Positions 96-7,776 of a stretch of DNA of 37,027 nt are shown here, piece after piece. The DNA comes from a virus. The stretch is from positions 1 through 37,027 of IMG/VR virus record IMGVR_UViG_3300044858_003524; one strand, written 5' to 3'. A program made the translations under genes and the position numbers. The notes below the pieces were generated by a model. It had not been told where the DNA came from, made no database searches, and saw only the letters and a list, made by a program, of their open reading frames with translations. Numbering within the stretch: position 1 is the stretch's first letter; each line of letters starts with the position of its first letter.

Positions 96-558
96 GAACA
101 TCCTGATTACTGTTGACGTCTTCCCACGAGAGCCCATATTTGGGCCTAAATCCGAGTTCGAGCAGCTTGTAATACTCTACGATCACGAGCCCGTGATCAC
201 AGGTCCAAGCCACGAGCGACAGACCACCGATCGTGTGGTGCTCAAGCAGTGCTTCGTGTTGGTGCTTCTGAAAGTCGGTCCAGGTCAGCCGTTCGCCCTT
301 GCGCAGTTTACTCTCGACCAACACCGACCGCCCACCGGGCAAGATGGCACGGAAGTCACCAGCAACCTTCTTGATCGGGAAGGCTGCAGTGATCCGACCG
401 CCCGGTCCGCGCAGGACCTTCCATCCAGTCTCGACCCGCTCAACCATGAGCAGCCCCCGGGCGGTCAACGCTGCAGCGACGTCCTTTTCAGTCAGTTCGC
501 CATCCTTGGCCGACTTCTTGCCAATGGCCTGCCAATCGGGCTTAGTCGGGCTGGCCAT
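1..558 (-). CDS. RecU-like Holliday junction resolvase, cut by the window start
   Basis: I translated this minus-strand frame by hand; it stays open from ATG 558-556 to base 1. Residues 67-84 read G-D-F-R-A-I-L-P-G-G-R-S-V-L-V-E-S-K, a PD-(D/E)xK core with D68, E82 and K84. A following Q97-K98-H99 and a hydrophobic strand (about 111-117) match the RecU/penicillin-binding-protein-related factor A family, which resolves four-way junctions. The start overlaps the end of the DUF6378 gene by 17 bp. Bases 1-85 are probably a chimeric contig end. If the genome is closed at the 31-base overlap, the gene continues at 37027 and stops with TAG at 36926-36924, giving 181 residues. It probably acts with the SSB-like, ATPase and Cas4-like genes in replication-linked recombination. 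Fold assignment is fairly sure; exact substrate is inferred. Confidence 0.8.
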   Translation of the reverse strand, partial: MASPTKPDWQAIGKKSAKDGELTEKDVAAALTARGLLMVERVETGWKVLRGPGGRITAAFPIKKVAGDFRAILPGGRSVLVESKLRKGERLTWTDFQKHQHEALLEHHTIGGLSLVAWTCDHGLVIVEYYKLLELGFRPKYGLSWEDVNSNQDVPPAIAASRKYDNASSSQPSRPRLTYGVSGGGF

Positions 559-934
559 CGTCTTCTTGCCCGAGTACGATTGACTGTTGTTTGGGTTTGG
601 TCTGCTCTTCGAGCAGCCGAGCCGAAACCAGGGTGATGTATCCGGCGATGTCGCGCCAGGAATCTTCGTAGTCGGGGTCTCCGTTGATAATCCGCCCGAT
701 CTTGTGGGCGACCATTTCGAGGGCTTCCCTCTGGTCGTTGTCCATGCTGTCCCACTTGGCCCGGTCGTGGTTGCGCATGATCGCCTTGATTGCCTGAGCA
801 ACCCTGGCGTGTCCGGTGAAGGACCCATACCGGGACCCTCTTTCAGCTAGGGTCTGGTTGATCGTTGGGGCGGCAGTGGGTGAGGTGGGTGGTGGGGTGG
901 CCGGATGGGCGGCACTGGTTATGACTGTGATCAT
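542..934 (-). CDS. DUF6378-like phage protein
   Basis: This 130-residue protein has a low-complexity Ala/Pro/Thr start followed by a conserved core. The core contains R-Y-G-S-F, then E-A-L-E-M-V-A-H-K-I-G-R-I-I-N-G-D-P-D-Y, then W-R-D-I-A-G-Y. This pattern is typical of the DUF6378 family found in many phages, whose biochemical role is unknown to me. The ATG at 934 is preferred over upstream in-frame starts because GGAG precedes it by five bases. It sits between the SSB-like gene and the resolvase, whose start it overlaps, so it is probably co-expressed with recombination functions. The family match is from recalled motif pattern, not a search. Confidence 0.75.
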   Translation of the reverse strand: MITVITSAAHPATPPPTSPTAAPTINQTLAERGSRYGSFTGHARVAQAIKAIMRNHDRAKWDSMDNDQREALEMVAHKIGRIINGDPDYEDSWRDIAGYITLVSARLLEEQTKPKQQSIVLGQEDDGQPD

Positions 935-1040: not shown

Positions 1041-1643
1041 TCAGAAGGGGGGCTCGTCCCCTCCGTTGCGGGGTCCCTTGACCACAGTCCGCTTGGTGAT
1101 GCCACCCGTGCGGCTGTTGGCGGCGGGCGGTGGGATGGCAGCAGCCGGGGCGGCAGGCGGATCAACAGTCGCCTGGACTTCACGAGTAGGGGCCGGGGCC
1201 GGGGCCTGACGAGCAGGGGCGGCAGCGGGTTTGGCTCCCTTAGGCGGGTTGATATAGGTATTCTTGTTGTCGTAGGTCTTGCCGTTCACGACCGTCTGTC
1301 CCTTCGAGCGGACCGCGATCTGCAACTTCTGGTCGAGGAACGGCACGAGGTTGTTGGAGTCTTCGAGGGCGGACAGCTTGCCGGTGTAGCCGAACACCTT
1401 GAGGTCGGACTTGACGTACGAGAGTGTCTGTTCGGTGATCACACGGTTGAAGGTGTGGTGGCGACCAGCGAAATCGCCTTCATCGACGATCACTTCGAAC
1501 ACGAGCATGTCGTTGCCGTTCGATGACTGCGTCAGTTCGATCCGGTCGAGGTGCGCTTCGTAGTTGCCATCGGGCAGCGGTCCGCCCTTGCTAACGGCGG
1601 CTTCGGTCTTGTCGTAGAGGTCGTCGAGGTCTTGCAGTCCCAT
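1041..1643 (-). CDS. Single-stranded-DNA-binding-like protein
   Basis: The 200-residue product has a beta-rich domain (about residues 20-120) with P-D-G-N-Y-E-A-H-L-D-R-I-E near its start, like the DUF669/phage SSB-type family. A long Ala/Pro-rich linker follows, ending in the acidic tip G-G-D-E-P-P-F. That tip resembles the terminal D-D-x-P-F of bacterial SSB, which docks partner proteins. ATG 1643 is chosen over an upstream in-frame start because the longer N-terminus is Leu/Pro-rich and antisense-like, and this ATG lies just after the ATPase stop. Direct adjacency to a RecA-like ATPase is typical of phage annealase/SSB pairs. The SSB role is inferred from architecture and position. Confidence 0.7.
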   Translation of the reverse strand: MGLQDLDDLYDKTEAAVSKGGPLPDGNYEAHLDRIELTQSSNGNDMLVFEVIVDEGDFAGRHHTFNRVITEQTLSYVKSDLKVFGYTGKLSALEDSNNLVPFLDQKLQIAVRSKGQTVVNGKTYDNKNTYINPPKGAKPAAAPARQAPAPAPTREVQATVDPPAAPAAAIPPPAANSRTGGITKRTVVKGPRNGGDEPPF

Positions 1644-1647
1644 GGGG

Positions 1648-2415
1648 TCAGGCTTTCTTGCTGTTCGCGGTGTGGGTGGTGGAGGCAGGAGCAGAAGGCG
1701 CAGCAGGTGCATACGCCTTGGTCAGGGTATCAAAGGTGTGGGCGTCAGTGGCGAGCCCGGTCGGCAGTCGGCCCGAGCGGTCGCCAGCATCGAAGGTCCC
1801 ACCCGGCTTGGTGTGCAGGAGCGGAGCGGAGCCACCGGCTGGAACTTCGATGAACCAGACGTTATCAACCATGCCAACAATCGCGTTGTAGAGTTCACCA
1901 GCCTTGTTGTCACCGGGCAGGAAGGGCACGACCTTCTCGATGTTGCCGGTGCGCTTGGTCTCGGTCTTGGTGGTGCTGTGCGCGAGCATCCACACCCCGA
2001 GTCCCTGGGCCGACAGCTTGGTAAGGTAGCGCTTCAGTTCGTTGATGATGAGCGCGGTTCCCTTGCCGTAGCCCAGCTTGCCGTCGCCCTTGTAGTCCTC
2101 ACCGTTCTTGGCACAGATGTAGGCGTCGCAGAGGGCGCAGGCGTTGCCGATCGTGTCGATGATGATGGCCTCGTACTTCGACTCGACGGCTTCCTTGGTG
2201 GCGAGCAGCAGGTCGTCCCACGTGGTGATGACGTACTGCCCATCGGCGTTCTGCCAGCGGTCGGCGGGCAACTGGTCGAGACCACGCTCGGTTGCCAGGA
2301 AGAGGGCTTTGGGGATCTGGCTTGCCAGAGTGGACTTGCCGACCTTCGGCGGTCCGTAGATCAGGCCGGTCTGCTTATGCAGCGCTGGCCGGGTGGTGTT
2401 CTTCGATATGGGCAT
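1648..2415 (-). CDS. RecA-like ATPase, Sak4-like (AAA_24)
   Basis: The 255-residue protein has a Walker A motif G21-P-P-K-V-G-K27-S-T and a Walker B strand E-A-I-I-I-D in a compact RecA-like domain. An Ala/Ser/Thr-rich tail follows from about residue 235. This matches the AAA_24 phage nucleotide-binding family, which includes Sak4-type single-strand annealing proteins that work with an SSB encoded next door. The start is well supported by AAGGAGG five bases before ATG 2415, the strongest Shine-Dalgarno in the left arm. It follows the Cas4-like gene after about 85 bp. ATPase assignment is firm; the annealase role is inferred. Confidence 0.85.
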   Translation of the reverse strand: MPISKNTTRPALHKQTGLIYGPPKVGKSTLASQIPKALFLATERGLDQLPADRWQNADGQYVITTWDDLLLATKEAVESKYEAIIIDTIGNACALCDAYICAKNGEDYKGDGKLGYGKGTALIINELKRYLTKLSAQGLGVWMLAHSTTKTETKRTGNIEKVVPFLPGDNKAGELYNAIVGMVDNVWFIEVPAGGSAPLLHTKPGGTFDAGDRSGRLPTGLATDAHTFDTLTKAYAPAAPSAPASTTHTANSKKA

Positions 2416-2500
2416 TGCGCCCTCCTTGTTGTCCCTGTCAGAGGTCGGGACTCACCTGTATGGGTGGGATCGTAACGCACTGCCGCGAGCAATCAACCGG

Positions 2501-3490
2501 TCAGAAGGCCGGTTTAGTCGTTTGGGCAGTGCTATCGCGTTTGGTGAATCCCGACTCAATGACGAGCGGGTTGTCGTAGGACTGGCAGATCGGGAGGAAG
2601 ATGCAGGGCTTGTTCCACTGGAAGCAGAACGCGGTGTTGCGGTACCAACGATTCTTGGCCCTCGCGTCGATCCAGGCTTGGCCGATGTCCCACGCTTCCT
2701 TGAGCATGGTCATGATGTCCTCTTCCTTGAGTAGGACTTCCTCACGCACGAATGCGTCCGGCCTCGTGTAGAACTCGACGACGCGGGCCTCGAACTCGGC
2801 CTCAGTCTCGGGCATCTTGCGTTTGCCTGCCTTCGGATTCTTGAGCTTCGACCTCCGCTCTTCAAACTCTCCCTCAGTCTCGCCCTTGTCGGGCACGAGG
2901 TCAGCAGTGGCGGGCTTCATCAAGATGTCATATATCACGCCAGCGAGTGGCTTGCCGAGGAACCGCTGCGCGGCATCGACGTACCACGCGATTTGGAAGT
3001 CGAGCCACAGCTTGCGCATGTAGGCGGCATCAACTCGGCCAGCGCTCTTGTGTTCGACCAACCAGAACGTCCCATCGACCTTCTTGCGGAAGATCGCATC
3101 GATCTTGCCCGTGCGGTAGAACGTCCGCGATGGACTGTTGGTGTCGGGGTTCAGCAGCGGAAGCTCGAACTCGTCCTCGACCGAGTAAACCTCGTACTCG
3201 CTGTCGGGCCAGCGCTTGTCGTACGCCTTCACAGCCTCGACTGCAACAAAGACGTGGTGCGGGTCCTTCGGCTTCTCGGTCTTCATCGCGTCAACGATCG
3301 CGTCAACGTTGATCTTCTTGCCGGTCTTGCGCGAGAGCAGCAGGACTTCGAGCCCCTTGTGGATGAGCTTGCCCAGCGACAAGACGGTGTCGTCTTCCGC
3401 CTTCGGGGCGAGGTTATGTTCGTAACGGAGGTATGCGAACTTGCGGCAATTGCGGAACGCGCAGGCTCCGCTCTGACTGAGGTGGTCCAT
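2501..3490 (-). CDS. Cas4/RecB-like PD-(D/E)xK nuclease with Fe-S-type cysteines
   Basis: The 329-residue protein carries the nuclease core G-K-I-D131-A-I followed by E146-H-K148. Cysteines at its two ends (C10 or C15 near the start, C289, C296 and C302 near the end) match the one-plus-three arrangement that holds a 4Fe-4S cluster in Cas4 and AddB-type nucleases. It probably resects DNA ends to give single strands for the neighbouring ATPase and SSB-like proteins. ATG 3490 is chosen because residue 1 then lies just before the first cysteine block and two bases past the datZ stop; AAGG precedes it. No CRISPR array or cas genes are nearby, so a recombination role is more likely than spacer acquisition. 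Confidence 0.85.
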   Translation of the reverse strand: MDHLSQSGACAFRNCRKFAYLRYEHNLAPKAEDDTVLSLGKLIHKGLEVLLLSRKTGKKINVDAIVDAMKTEKPKDPHHVFVAVEAVKAYDKRWPDSEYEVYSVEDEFELPLLNPDTNSPSRTFYRTGKIDAIFRKKVDGTFWLVEHKSAGRVDAAYMRKLWLDFQIAWYVDAAQRFLGKPLAGVIYDILMKPATADLVPDKGETEGEFEERRSKLKNPKAGKRKMPETEAEFEARVVEFYTRPDAFVREEVLLKEEDIMTMLKEAWDIGQAWIDARAKNRWYRNTAFCFQWNKPCIFLPICQSYDNPLVIESGFTKRDSTAQTTKPAF

Positions 3491-3492
3491 GG

Positions 3493-4062
3493 TTATGCCT
3501 TGTCTGGTGTGGTGGTTTCGATCGGCAGGCTTTGTTCGAGAGACTCGCACGCGATGATTTCGTCGATCAGCTTTTCGGTGTCAGGGTCGAGAGGCGGGTC
3601 GGACGGGTGCGACTCGCGAGCCTTGGTCAGCCTGATCATGCTCAGCACCAGTGCCGCCCGGGCCTCATGATTGCCAAGGCGGATTTCACCCTTGAGGTAA
3701 CATACCTCGTCGAGCAAATTGGCGATGACACACAACCGCTTGACGAACGGAGTCGGATCGGTCACTGCAAATCCGAGCCCGCGATTGACCAGCCCCGCAT
3801 CTTCATATGCGTTGAGCTTGACCCGGTCGCACGATGAACGCTTGACCGGACCGGGCATGTCGCCCGTGAAGGATTCGGCCACGTCGTGGAACAGGCAGTA
3901 TTCGAGAAGTCCCGCCCGGGTGGCATCGCTGAGATCCTCAGTCGTCGCCATGAGCGAGGCATAGACCGCGACATAGTACGAGTGATCGGCCACCGACTGC
4001 CGGTGGATGACGCGAAGCACGACCCAACGCGGGACGTGGCTGAGAGTGCGAAGGTCCTTCAT
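3493..4062 (-). CDS. datZ: DatZ-like HD-domain dATP triphosphohydrolase
   Basis: The 189-residue protein is a YfbR-type HD phosphohydrolase. H27 lies in S-V-A-D-H-S-Y-Y, H59-D60 in L-F-H-D-V-A-E-S-F-T-G-D-M-P, and a later acidic residue, probably D118, completes the metal site. In known Z-genome phages (S-2L, phiVC8) a homologue called DatZ removes dATP and so keeps adenine out of phage DNA. Here it lies in one operon with PurZ, MazZ and a DpoZ-like polymerase, which is the main reason to prefer DatZ over a generic 5'-nucleotidase. Its ATG overlaps the stop of the coiled-coil gene by four bases. Specificity for dATP is inferred. Confidence 0.85.
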   Translation of the reverse strand: MKDLRTLSHVPRWVVLRVIHRQSVADHSYYVAVYASLMATTEDLSDATRAGLLEYCLFHDVAESFTGDMPGPVKRSSCDRVKLNAYEDAGLVNRGLGFAVTDPTPFVKRLCVIANLLDEVCYLKGEIRLGNHEARAALVLSMIRLTKARESHPSDPPLDPDTEKLIDEIIACESLEQSLPIETTTPDKA

Positions 4063-4355
4063 ATTCTCTGCTCAAAGGATAGGAGTGGGAGTACCTCGAC
4101 GCCGATAGCGGTCCGCCCGACCGTGACTATGAAGCAGGACTGCGAATCCATCAGCATAGTCAGGCGCAAGGCATCAGAGGGTGCGGATTCACGTAGTGCT
4201 TTGTCCACCGTGGCCAGCCTCGCCTGTGCTGCTTCCAATTGGTCCTTCGCACGAGCCAGAGCTTTTGATGCATCAGCCAGTTCCTTTGTACGAGTCAGGA
4301 ACAAGCGGATTAGTTCCTTTCCTTCTGGTGACAACTCGTTTGATAGCTCGGTCAT
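4059..4355 (-). CDS. Small coiled-coil protein inside the Z cassette, unknown
   Basis: I do not recognise this 98-residue protein. Residues about 8-55 form a charged amphipathic helix (repeats of A-x-A/K-x-L/E, with A-R-A-K-D-Q-L-E-A-A-Q-A-R-L) likely to be a coiled coil. The last 35 residues look beta-like (C-F-I-V-T-V-G-R-T-A-I-G-V-E-V-L-P). It overlaps mazZ upstream and datZ downstream by four bases each, so it is translationally coupled to both. Such placement suggests a role in Z metabolism or in assembling these enzymes, but nothing in the sequence shows a catalytic site. Confidence 0.75.
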   Translation of the reverse strand: MTELSNELSPEGKELIRLFLTRTKELADASKALARAKDQLEAAQARLATVDKALRESAPSDALRLTMLMDSQSCFIVTVGRTAIGVEVLPLLSFEQRI

Positions 4356-4639
4356 GCGTCCCTCTTGATCGTCATCTTGGCAGCGCGGGCGAAGACGAAC
4401 AGCGCGAAGTTCGCCACGTCGGCAGCTTCGCTCTTCACCGCCTTCTCACCCTCGTACTTGGTGGCGACTTCGAGTTCGAGGACCTCAGCCTGCAGCCGAC
4501 GCAACAGGAGTTCGGTCGGCATCTTGGTCGCTTCGGTCTTGTGGTCGTTGTCACGGAGCTTGCGCTCCATTTCGACCGCGAACTCGCGCAGCGCGGGGCG
4601 GACGTCTTCGATCCCAATCCCGAGAGGGAACCCGCTCAC
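4352..4639 (-). CDS. mazZ: MazZ-like dGTP pyrophosphohydrolase (MazG family)
   Basis: The 95-residue all-alpha protein carries E23-M-E-R-K-L-R-D-N-D-H-K near its start and the MazG metal-binding pattern E52-x-x-E55 followed by E71-x-x-D74, with N77. This matches small MazG/DUF550-type enzymes. In Z-genome phages MazZ hydrolyses dGTP (and GTP) to dGMP, the substrate of PurZ. The start is GTG at 4639, overlapping the purZ stop as GTGA; a longer in-frame reading upstream is antisense-like and rich in Arg/His. The order purZ-mazZ with coupled translation strongly supports the role. Substrate choice is inferred from family and context. Confidence 0.88.
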   Translation of the reverse strand: MSGFPLGIGIEDVRPALREFAVEMERKLRDNDHKTEATKMPTELLLRRLQAEVLELEVATKYEGEKAVKSEAADVANFALFVFARAAKMTIKRDA

Positions 4640-5709
4640 TTGGCACCACCCTGCGCGAAGAGGCGCATGGCCATGTCGTCGATCGCGGAGGTCGTGTAAA
4701 CGTCCGCGACGTCCGGTCCGCAGGACAGCAGGGTCGGCACCTTGCCGGCCTGAGTCATGCGCCTGACCAGTTCCCACAGCTTGTCAGCCGAGGGCATGTA
4801 GTCGCAGAAGGTGAGTGCGACGTAGTCGGGGCGCAGCATCGACAGCGAATGCTGATACTGCTGATCCGACCACGAGAAGATACGCCTGATCCGCTTGGTC
4901 ACGGTGGTCAGTTCGGGTTCGCGACCGAGTTCCTCCCAAGTGTGTTCCTTCTGGTCGTTGTACACCGGGCCAGAGTAGCCGATCTCCTTGCCGGTCTCCT
5001 TGTCGATCAGGTTGCCAACGCGGATCGGGTGGGTGCGGGCGGTCATCATCGTGTAGCCGAGGAATGACGGGTGGATCGCGGCATCAGCAAGGGCTTGCGA
5101 CACCGAGACCTCACGGCAGGTCGTGTAGGGCCAGAAGCCGGAATTGACCGACAAGCCGAAGCCCTGCGGCACCTCGACCACGACGCGAGCGCCAAGTCCC
5201 ATCTGCTTGTTGAGGTCCATCGTGCCGATCCACCGGCTGATCGAACTGATGTCCTTGGCCACCGGTCCCTTGCGGCTGATCTTGGCCATTTGTGCCGCAC
5301 CAACGCCCTTCTGCGTCGAAGCGATCTTGGCTGCTCCGCTGGTCTTGTCCTTCTCGAACTCGCGGCAGGCGTCAGTGATGATCGCGGCGTGAGGATGGAT
5401 GACGAGCCGGTGAGCGAGGCCGAACTCTTCGACCTCTTTGAGCAGGACGTCGGGATCGATGATCGCGCCAGCATTGAGATAAACCTTGGCGCTGTGATTG
5501 ATCGCGGCGAAGGTCGGGGTGTGGAAGCAGACAAACTTTCTCTTGCCGATGACGGTCGTGTGACCGGCGTTGGCCGAGGCGTTTGTGGTCGCGATGTCGC
5601 AGTCGTTCAACTGCGCGAGGTAGGCGGCGATGAGACCCTTTCCGGTGGAACCGAACTGACCGTCGATCAGGACGGAGGCGTGGCAGGGCTTGGTGAAGGG
5701 AGCGATCAT
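4636..5709 (-). CDS. purZ: PurZ, N6-succino-2-amino-2'-deoxyadenylate synthase
   Basis: This 357-residue adenylosuccinate synthetase homologue carries G17-Q-F-G-S21-T-G-K24-G where bacterial PurA has Q-W-G-D-E-G-K-G-K. The catalytic Asp of PurA is thus replaced by Ser, the diagnostic change in PurZ. H50 lies in N-A-G-H-T as in PurA. V-P-Q-G-F-G-L-S-V and Y-T-T match the substrate loop, and T-T-V-T-K-R-I-R-R-I-F-S-W matches the aspartate-binding loop. PurZ joins aspartate to dGMP, and host PurB then releases fumarate to give dZMP. ATG 5709 is chosen because GAGGA precedes it by four bases. The protein is shorter than E. coli PurA (about 430 residues), as in other phage PurZ. Confidence 0.93.
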   Translation of the reverse strand: MIAPFTKPCHASVLIDGQFGSTGKGLIAAYLAQLNDCDIATTNASANAGHTTVIGKRKFVCFHTPTFAAINHSAKVYLNAGAIIDPDVLLKEVEEFGLAHRLVIHPHAAIITDACREFEKDKTSGAAKIASTQKGVGAAQMAKISRKGPVAKDISSISRWIGTMDLNKQMGLGARVVVEVPQGFGLSVNSGFWPYTTCREVSVSQALADAAIHPSFLGYTMMTARTHPIRVGNLIDKETGKEIGYSGPVYNDQKEHTWEELGREPELTTVTKRIRRIFSWSDQQYQHSLSMLRPDYVALTFCDYMPSADKLWELVRRMTQAGKVPTLLSCGPDVADVYTTSAIDDMAMRLFAQGGAK

Positions 5710-5728
5710 AAGTTCCTCGTGGTGTAGG

Positions 5729-5760
5729 CCCGACAGTATCGTCGGGTGTGGGTGTTGCAA
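5729..5760 (-). promoter_or_regulatory. purZ promoter candidate overlapping a perfect inverted repeat
   Basis: Read on the minus strand, TTGCAA (5760-5755) and TACTGT (5738-5733) are separated by 16 bp, the spacing used by other promoters here. An exact inverted repeat, CCCGAC-six bases-GTCGGG (5729-5746), covers the -10 box and the likely start site. Transcription from here would leave a short leader with GAGGA before ATG 5709. The repeat could be an operator or an RNA stem-loop. The -35 and next five bases (TTGCAACACCC) recur at 8850. Confidence 0.5.
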
Positions 5761-5772
5761 CGGGTGACGCGA

Positions 5773-7776
5773 CTACTTCATGAATCGATCGGCAATGCCG
5801 ATATCGACCTTGATCGGGAAGCCTGCTGCCCAATCAGGCGCGGCGGTCATGCATTCGGACAGGACACGCTTGGCCTCGTCCTTCCGATCGATGGTGCAGC
5901 AGCCCATGACCGAATCGTGCACGTGGGCGACGATGGTCGGCGCACCGGGCGTCTTGTCCATCAACAGCACAGCGTGGCGGAGCAGATCGCTGGCAGTTGC
6001 CTGCGTGAAAATGTCAGTCAGTGATCCGCCATACAAACCTTCGCGGGTGTACTGGCGGATCTTGGTGTTCCAGTTCGCGTAGGTGACCTCTTCACCGTAC
6101 TGACCCTCGACGATCTGGGTGTCGCGGAAGAAGAGGCAGCGACCAGATCGCAGTCGAGCCTGGACGTGGCCAGCGCTGGTGAAAGTCATACGAATTCCAG
6201 CCACGGTCGTTTCCTCGTGGTCACGGGCGACGCGCAGGATCGCTGCCTGCAACTTGGCCCAGAGCCCGGTCTTGTAGGCGGCGAGGGCTGGGAACTCATC
6301 ACGAAACGCCTTGACCACCTTGTCCCCTGTCAGGCCGAATACAGACAGATCGAGCCCGTATTTCTCCTTGCAATCTTCCTCGAAGCGTGGCCCGCCAATT
6401 TGCATGCAGCACGAGAGGACGGCACGCTTGCCAACGTCACGTTCCTTCTCATCTGCTTTGGTGATCGCTCGACCGAACAGTTTGCTGGCCATCACGCAAT
6501 ACATGTCCGTATTGAGTCGCCACATGGCGAGGTGCTTCTCATCACCAGCGAGCCACATGGCCCCACGTGCTTCGATCTGGCCGTAGTCGGCCATGATGAA
6601 CACCTCACCGTCGGGGGCCTTGATGATCGGGCGCATGCAAGCCACGACGCCATCGGCTGGGCGACCGTCGGTGATCTTGGTAAGCAGTGGCATGTCTTCT
6701 TCAAGCACGGCAGTGATGCAGTCGCGGACGTTCAGCCCGTAGCGAGGCTTCGCGATGTTCTGCACCTGGACGCCACCGGATGAAAACCGACCAGTGTGAC
6801 CACCGTAGTAACGATGACCACCAAGGATCCGATCGTTAACGCGGGCGGCATCGATGGAGTCGAGCTTGTCGAAGCTGGCTTTGCTGATCGCGAGCCTGGA
6901 CATCAGCACAGCGCGGACCTCGTTGGTCAGTTTGCCACCGAGCAACTTCTCGACCGTCTCTTTTCGTAAATCGTTGGCGGTGATCTTTCGCTCGGCCAAC
7001 CATGCGCGGATAAACGGCACGCTGGTGAGCTTCGACTTGTCGAATGACGCAGGCAGGCGGACGCCGGAGTCGAGACGTGCGACCACAGTTTGGCTTTTGT
7101 GCAGCAGTTCGACATCGATCGGGATTCCGCGACGGTTCACGCCGAGGTGCCACTGAAACACCTCAAGCTCGGACTCTGGGAAAACCTGCTGCATACGCAT
7201 GAACACCGCCATGCATAGTTCGGCGTCGTGCATGCAGTATTCGAGCATCGAGTCCATCATCCAAGGCGGGCAGGTATTCATCAAGCCGGTCTGTGCATCA
7301 GGGATCGAAAACTTGTCGATCAGGTGCTTGCCCTCTTCAAGTTTGCTGCCTAGGCCGAGCTTCTTGGCGCAGCCGTCGAGATTAGGCGGCAGGCGGAAGT
7401 ACGACGCCATTGCGGACGTGCAGATGCAACGGTTGCTCGGCACGTCGATCCCAAGCAGTCCGTTGATCCCGACCTCGAACTCGACGTTGTGGGCGATCAG
7501 GTATGCACCTTCGACGTGGGCAAGGCGTGCAAGCGGTTCGGGCAGGGCCGACCATTCGTGCAGCGTGGCGTTGGGCAGACCGACGGAGCAGGCGTCACGC
7601 TCGGGCATCCAGTAGCCACGCTTCTTCTCGCCCGTCTTGATGTTGATTTCGATCCAGCAAGCGCACAGGACTTTGGTGGTCGGGTGCTTGCCGTAGGCCA
7701 GAGCCCCGATCGCAGGCAAATCCGCGTAGCTGCTGGTTTCGAAGTCGAGGAACAGGATTGATGACATCGGGGTCAT
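5773..7776 (-). CDS. dpoZ: Family-A DNA polymerase with 3'-5' exonuclease domain, DpoZ-like
   Basis: The 667-residue protein begins with a 3'-5' exonuclease domain: D11-F-E13 (Exo I), A-H-N-V-E-F (Exo II, near residue 100) and Y-C-M-H-D-A-E (Exo III, near 185). The polymerase domain shows motif A as M-A-D397-Y-G-Q-I-E-A-R, motif B as E-R-D-V-G-K-R-A-V-L-S-C-C-M-Q-I-G-G, and motif C as V-H620-D621-S622. Motif C normally reads H-D-E. In aminoadenine siphoviruses the polymerase next to PurZ is of this family (DpoZ) and favours dZTP over dATP. ATG 7776 is preferred over GTG 7788 because it makes a 4-bp ATGA overlap with the upstream gene and GGAAG precedes it. Polymerase identity is firm; Z preference is inferred. 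Confidence 0.9.
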   Translation of the reverse strand: MTPMSSILFLDFETSSYADLPAIGALAYGKHPTTKVLCACWIEINIKTGEKKRGYWMPERDACSVGLPNATLHEWSALPEPLARLAHVEGAYLIAHNVEFEVGINGLLGIDVPSNRCICTSAMASYFRLPPNLDGCAKKLGLGSKLEEGKHLIDKFSIPDAQTGLMNTCPPWMMDSMLEYCMHDAELCMAVFMRMQQVFPESELEVFQWHLGVNRRGIPIDVELLHKSQTVVARLDSGVRLPASFDKSKLTSVPFIRAWLAERKITANDLRKETVEKLLGGKLTNEVRAVLMSRLAISKASFDKLDSIDAARVNDRILGGHRYYGGHTGRFSSGGVQVQNIAKPRYGLNVRDCITAVLEEDMPLLTKITDGRPADGVVACMRPIIKAPDGEVFIMADYGQIEARGAMWLAGDEKHLAMWRLNTDMYCVMASKLFGRAITKADEKERDVGKRAVLSCCMQIGGPRFEEDCKEKYGLDLSVFGLTGDKVVKAFRDEFPALAAYKTGLWAKLQAAILRVARDHEETTVAGIRMTFTSAGHVQARLRSGRCLFFRDTQIVEGQYGEEVTYANWNTKIRQYTREGLYGGSLTDIFTQATASDLLRHAVLLMDKTPGAPTIVAHVHDSVMGCCTIDRKDEAKRVLSECMTAAPDWAAGFPIKVDIGIADRFMK

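Follow-up and report, generated by a model that had tools for sequence, protein, structure and literature searches.

A predicted aminoadenine (Z) cassette with a polymerase outside both DpoZ lineages and altered PurZ and DatZ active sites in a phage genome from IMG/VR

We analysed the 37,027-base IMG/VR virus record IMGVR_UViG_3300044858_003524 (the window), which carries a PurZ-centred gene cassette predicted to serve the synthesis of DNA with 2-aminoadenine (Z) in place of adenine. On balance, the phage appears to make dZTP and to place Z in its DNA by way of MazZ-2, PurZ, a variant polymerase and an altered DatZ. In the proposed pathway, MazZ-2 would cut (d)GTP to (d)GMP, PurZ would join dGMP to aspartate with a donor pocket better suited to GTP or dGTP than to (d)ATP, and host PurB and host kinases would finish dZTP. 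The genome would then be copied by a family-A polymerase belonging to neither known DpoZ lineage; if this enzyme favours Z over A, the preference most likely resides in a Tyr-to-Met change in motif B. Clearance of dATP by the HD protein would probably be weakened or altered, one metal ligand being Asn. Family placement, residue changes, synteny and purifying selection were computed, whereas we infer which substrates are used, how much Z the DNA contains, how selective the polymerase is and whether DatZ is active. Family membership, residues and synteny lend good support to the predicted synthesis of Z through PurZ and MazZ-2, and a cassette gene order similar to that of the proven Z phages phiVC8, S-2L and SH-Ab 15497 was observed.

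An initial annotation had placed four such genes in one minus-strand series at positions 3493-7776. Our gene calls bear this out and add a 98-amino-acid open reading frame (ORF) that had been missed. Each pair of neighbouring minus-strand genes from purZ through the HD gene shares four bases: the mazG-type start overlaps the purZ stop (GTGA), and the 98-amino-acid ORF and the HD gene are joined through ATGA overlaps. No match to the window was found by near-DNA search of the phage collection, but single-protein scans for lineage members retrieved a sister genome, L010, as well as one 41%-identical contig for PurZ. The sister genome is 94% (PurZ), 98% (polymerase) and 95% (DatZ-like protein) identical to the window, and the 98-amino-acid ORF, which had no family match in searches of the window proteins, is absent from it. 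Ratios of nonsynonymous to synonymous substitution rates (dN/dS) between the two genomes were 0.036 for the polymerase, 0.074 for DatZ, 0.09 for PurZ and 0.10 for MazZ, indicating purifying selection on all four.

PurZ matched phrog_1211 (5e-60) and NF038379 (2e-67; 227 bits, under the curated cut-off of 300), and among PDB entries phiVC8 PurZ (1e-46) and S-2L PurZ (2.5e-42). The replacement of the PurA catalytic Asp by Ser, noted in the initial annotation, could be read in the loop DGQFGSTGKG, with Ser at the Asp13 position. In a tree of 86 sequences, whose PurA outgroup comprised two sequences only and no archaeal PurA, the window PurZ lay deep within the PurZ clade, set apart from PurZ0 and PurA by starred branches. 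A grouping with PurA, named beforehand as grounds for refutation, was looked for in this tree and not seen, nor did the protein group with the Arthrobacter/Gordonia PurZ0; it grouped instead with dGMP-using PurZ. The tree showed two PurZ clades, the first holding nearly all cultured phages and the second mostly uncultured ones. The window belongs to the second, whose sole cultured member in the tree set is phage OH. Residues of the dGMP pocket (S23, N49, H52, T132, R146, Q190, Y203, R240, V241, T273 and R280 in S-2L numbering; roles in PMC8342488) are all retained. The protein thus sits firmly inside the clade of dGMP-using enzymes and is predicted to use dGMP and aspartate.

The phosphate-donor pocket departs from this pattern. 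Where the PurZ consensus reads NFxN or NFxQ, the window reads TFCD, with Thr at position 305 and Asp at position 308 in place of the donor-pocket Gln or Asn (S-2L Q308, phiVC8 N297). In the alignment, this Asp falls on the Asp of the PurA TKLD motif and on the PurZ0 Asp. The second donor loop, SCGPD, resembles STGPD of PurA, whereas most PurZ have GxGP. Ser or Ala in this SxGP loop was found in 11 of 13 Asp-type PurZ rows but in only 4 of 63 Asn/Gln-type rows (Fisher 1.7e-8, rows counted without correction for ancestry). Knowledge of PurA, together with a published remark that Q308/N297 conflict with a 2-amino group (PMC8342488), makes GTP or dGTP seem a likelier phosphate donor for the window PurZ than (d)ATP. 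We took the PurZ donor preference from the introduction of PMC12884076, one sentence of which has PurZ0 preferring ATP and PurZ preferring GTP, the reverse of its own introduction on PurZ. The donor Asp is common to 9 further uncultured PurZ rows with GFCD. A single origin for the window and this 9-row clade gave p 0.47 in an approximately unbiased (AU) test, compatible with one or two origins, and four changes were counted over all rows of the tree. The members of that clade (L028, L030, L032, L035, L038, L039, L044, L046 and L050) have the donor motif H-x-G-F-C-D-Y and a predicted GTP-type donor; their polymerases are DpoZ-2-related, with Thr at the motif-B Tyr where readable.

The MazG-type protein matched no Pfam or NCBIfam family above cut-off and no MazZ-1 profile. 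It did match a profile of phiVC8, OH and ZP6 MazZ-2 only (3.1e-8) and a larger MazZ-2 profile (2.6e-20), both built without the window protein. Four acidic metal ligands are kept (both E of AEVLELE, and E and D of SEAAD, equivalent to S-2L E35, E38, E50 and D53), and an Arg occurs near the C terminus, in a loosely aligned stretch where it may or may not correspond to S-2L R83. The designation as a MazG-type MazZ holds: the protein is of the MazZ-2 type, a predicted (d)GTP pyrophosphohydrolase.

The polymerase matched PF00476 (7e-18) and has the exonuclease motifs, but it scored only 25 bits against the DpoZ-2 profile, compared with about 290 or more for most other full-length cassette polymerases; low-scoring exceptions (41-101 bits) were the PurZ0-type loci, L011/L087/L088 and L107. 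In the polymerase tree it joined, with full support, PolA of Rhodoferax phage P26218, KPP23, Suzuki and others, its exact sister being unsure as long branches meet at the window according to a tool warning. The AU test rejected placement with DpoZ-2 (p 2.2e-6) and with DpoZ-1 of the Wayne/Ghobes-like type (p 3.7e-6). The polymerase is a separate PolA lineage, neither DpoZ-1 nor DpoZ-2. Its motif B reads LSCCMQIGG, whereas its nearest relatives have LGCGYQLGG, placing Met at the position of Klenow Tyr766. The Phe of DpoZ motif B (phiVC8 F459) is therefore not present; OH-like DpoZ-2 itself has Thr or Ser there. Earlier work named this Phe as the one change common to both DpoZ clades and considered that selectivity is not explained by any single residue (PMC8599892). 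Across 77 Z-linked PolA, the Tyr766 position held Thr in 35, Phe in 28, Tyr in 11 and Ser, Asn and Met in one each, with two more unread; 25 non-Z PolA had Tyr (19) or Phe (6).

The HD protein matched the phrog_7076 dATP triphosphohydrolase (5e-17). An AlphaFold2 model from 25 sequences (predicted local distance difference test score (pLDDT) 81, predicted template modelling score 0.77) aligned with S-2L DatZ 6zpa over 166 residues (Z score 17.6, root-mean-square deviation 3.2) and was equally near YfbR (Z score 18.6). In S-2L numbering, R19, W20, Q29, A32, H34, H66, D67, E70, G74, P79 and K81 are retained. I22 is conservatively replaced by Val, and K116 is also Val at a position variable in other homologues. 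The initial annotation of an HD-type DatZ thus stands for fold and family, but not for an intact metal site: the Asp119 ligand, among the catalytic-metal ligands described as strictly conserved in DatZ (PMC8065100), is missing. Among the loci examined, Asp119 is lost only in the window lineage, as Asn, and in L069 and L070, as Gly. The latter pair, from two different samples (L069 1985-2866, L070 4522-5403), forms a second DatZ-like lineage with such a change. Asn is encoded by AAT in the window but by AAC in the sister genome L010. An assembly error could be ruled out, as the sister genome has the same residue through a different codon; together with the dN/dS of 0.074, this codon change argues that the Asn is a kept feature, not decay or error. 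Bd1817, an HD protein whose last Asp ligand is Asn, shows no activity on c-di-GMP, whereas Ddi2 functions with Thr at the last HD ligand (both PMC8177086); the activity of the window protein is therefore not predictable. We regard the HD protein as homologous to DatZ, with a capacity for dATP clearance that the Asn ligand probably weakens or alters.

A Z pathway, as proposed in the initial annotation, remains the best reading of these data, with a clade-member PurZ, MazZ-2 and an HD/DatZ-like neighbour as in proven Z phages. What did not hold was a complete hallmark set of the S-2L or phiVC8 type: the polymerase is not DpoZ (AU p about 1e-6), DatZ lacks Asp119, and the PurZ donor pocket is PurA/PurZ0-like. 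A standard complete cassette, with all four proteins functioning as their S-2L or phiVC8 counterparts do, Z fully replacing A and the sequence departures being neutral, therefore seems unlikely, even though synteny, family matches and purifying selection on all four genes agree with it, Asn can still bind metal and S-2L copes although its polymerase does not select Z (PMC8065100). In S-2L, exclusion of A depends on DatZ, whereas the window DatZ lacks a ligand that, among the homologues examined, is otherwise lost only as Gly in one lineage, and its polymerase lies outside both DpoZ clades. That PurZ is an ordinary IMP-using PurA in a cassette merely boosting adenine nucleotides is very improbable; its PurA-like donor motif would fit, but the catalytic Asp is replaced by Ser, the dGMP pocket is retained, the sequence is nested within the PurZ clade, and its locus includes MazZ-2 and an HD gene.

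Of the two published devices for excluding dA, DatZ is altered here and DpoZ absent, and we prefer a model in which the new polymerase has acquired selectivity. Several observations weigh against our overall reading. The whole window yielded no DpoZ, and the HD protein has Asn for Asp119 in both lineage genomes, although H34, H66 and D67 are kept. The polymerase Met is a change in one lineage of two genomes, the non-Z polymerases closest to that of the window share only about 30% identity with it, and the excess of non-aromatic residues at the Tyr766 position (38 of 77 Z-linked versus none of 25 non-Z PolA) comes from loci counted without correction for shared ancestry. Asp in the donor pocket alone need not fix the donor. 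As dATP rejection has no proven agent here, substitution could also be partial. The main rival takes this up: dZTP is made but dATP poorly excluded, leaving both A and Z in virion DNA. DatZ D119N and K116V, the inactivity of Bd1817 and the missing DpoZ speak for such a weakened system, which we nonetheless consider somewhat unlikely, given strong purifying selection on all cassette genes, preservation of Asn through a synonymous codon change and a polymerase Tyr-to-Met change that may restore selectivity. A more specific form of the polymerase-selectivity model, which we put forward as a tentative possibility, is that a third, independently recruited PolA became Z-selective through loss of the motif-B Tyr to Met and works with a GTP/dGTP-using PurZ with a PurA-like pocket, so that exclusion of A would be independent of an intact DatZ.

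Compared with known systems, the window is like Ochrobactrum phage vB_OspP_OH in its PurZ (42% identical, same broad clade), MazZ-2 type, HD protein and a small ORF between MazZ and DatZ, although the OH ORF looks, by eye, unlike that of the window. OH differs in its DpoZ-2-related PolA (730 bits against a DpoZ-2 profile built with OH in it, versus 25 for the window), the presence of DatZ Asp119 and the PurZ donor motif NFMNY. phiVC8 shares gene content, the order of PurZ, MazZ and DatZ, and a 36-38% identical PurZ, but differs in polymerase lineage (DpoZ-2), DatZ metal ligand and PurZ donor residue (Asn rather than Asp). S-2L has PurZ and DatZ homologues and, like the window, no DpoZ; it differs in having MazZ-1 and PrimPol instead of MazZ-2 and PolA, and in its DatZ Asp119. 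PurZ0 systems (Arthrobacter phages, Ghobes) share an Asp donor motif (TMLD, SFAD) but form a separate clade with DpoZ-1 and DutZ/DmtZ/DUF5664 accessory genes (PMC12884076). The closest named polymerase, PolA of Rhodoferax phage P26218, is 30-33% identical and in the same clade, but keeps the motif-B Tyr, and no PurZ was found in that phage. The initial annotation had also expected the modified DNA to resist many restriction enzymes and Cas nucleases. Resistance of Z-DNA to adenine-targeting restriction enzymes is published for S-2L (PMC8342488), whereas a limited literature search found no support for resistance to Cas nucleases.

Beyond the cassette, recombination genes extend the series and a DUF6378 gene ends it (Table 1). 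Family searches placed a D5-like primase-helicase upstream of the series; terminase, portal and head genes are on the plus strand.

Table 1. Genes of the minus-strand series in the window, with the evidence for each assignment
Feature	Position	Strand	Evidence
Family-A DNA polymerase with 3'-5' exonuclease domain; motif B GKRAVLSCCMQIGG	5773..7776	-	PF00476, tree, motif table, AU test, residue table
PurZ (predicted 2-amino-2'-deoxyadenylosuccinate synthetase); GSTGKG loop; donor motif ALTFCDY, SCGPD	4636..5709	-	family, PDB, tree, residues
Predicted MazZ-2-type MazG-like (d)GTP pyrophosphohydrolase, 95 amino acids, GTG start; AEVLELE...SEAADVANF	4352..4639	-	profile search
98-amino-acid ORF, no family; 4-base overlap with each neighbour	4059..4355	-	ORF calls, family searches
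HD-domain DatZ-like hydrolase; Asn115 at S-2L Asp119 position; Val at Lys116	3493..4062	-	family, fold, residues
PD-(D/E)XK exonuclease, Sak4-like annealing protein, SSB-like DUF669; recombination genes extending the series	1041..3490	-	family searches
DUF6378 protein, possible accessory nucleotide enzyme, end of the same series	542..934	-	PF19905

Many PurZ loci have DUF6378 or DUF5664, sometimes directly before purZ and never both in one locus of the set examined. DUF5664 is a proven dATP/dGTP pyrophosphohydrolase (PMC12884076), and DUF6378 could by analogy take the pyrophosphohydrolase part as an accessory enzyme. Comparison of small alignments with hhalign gave no support for homology of DUF6378 to DUF5664 or MazZ, and an AlphaFold model (pLDDT 82.6) had no significant fold match, nor the protein a PDB sequence match. 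We rejected a specific tie of DUF6378 to Z, because the 80 IMG/VR loci retrieved with this gene are without PurZ and most cultured phages having it are non-Z. The window copy is up to 64% identical to non-Z copies and may therefore be a backbone gene. Besides the window, DUF6378 stands beside Z cassettes in L021 (10389-11075), L002 (10461-10757), L003 (19697-19993, minus strand), L006 (10248-10610) and L008 (10243-10515). In S-2L, its gene is found on the opposite strand to the annotated S2L_16, which suggests a mis-annotation.

Other loci with PurZ-type or related genes were also seen. Two contigs of bacterial metagenome-assembled genomes, one of 994 kb, encode a PurZ-type protein with GSTGKG (L105 4974-6011, L106 4962-6005), flanked by cytidylate-kinase-like and RdgB-like genes as judged by eye; the stretches examined hold no DatZ, MazZ or DpoZ, pointing to a possible chromosomal PurZ. 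In L011, a contig without DatZ or MazZ matches, PurZ is adjoined by a protein (5341-6465) that, judged by eye, joins an apparent nucleotide kinase to a MazG-like region. Microvirga and Sphingomonas contigs (L109 4407-6032, L110 4440-6029) encode PurA-like proteins with Ser at the catalytic Asp (GSEGKG) and a donor Asp.

Overall, a Z pathway with PurZ, MazZ-2 and an HD gene is known, and what is new here is the polymerase lineage and the active-site departures in the PurZ donor pocket and DatZ. Adenine exclusion varies among Z phages, S-2L relying on DatZ and phiVC8 having DpoZ as well, and a cassette without canonical DpoZ or an intact metal site in DatZ offers a natural way to test what such exclusion really requires. 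The polymerase Met, PurZ Asp/Ser and DatZ Asn each amount to a hypothesis at the level of single residues, open to assay with the purified proteins. The donor shift has been pictured as one-way, from GTP-using PurZ0 to ATP-using PurZ; a GTP-using PurZ within the ATP-using clade, if true, would alter that picture.

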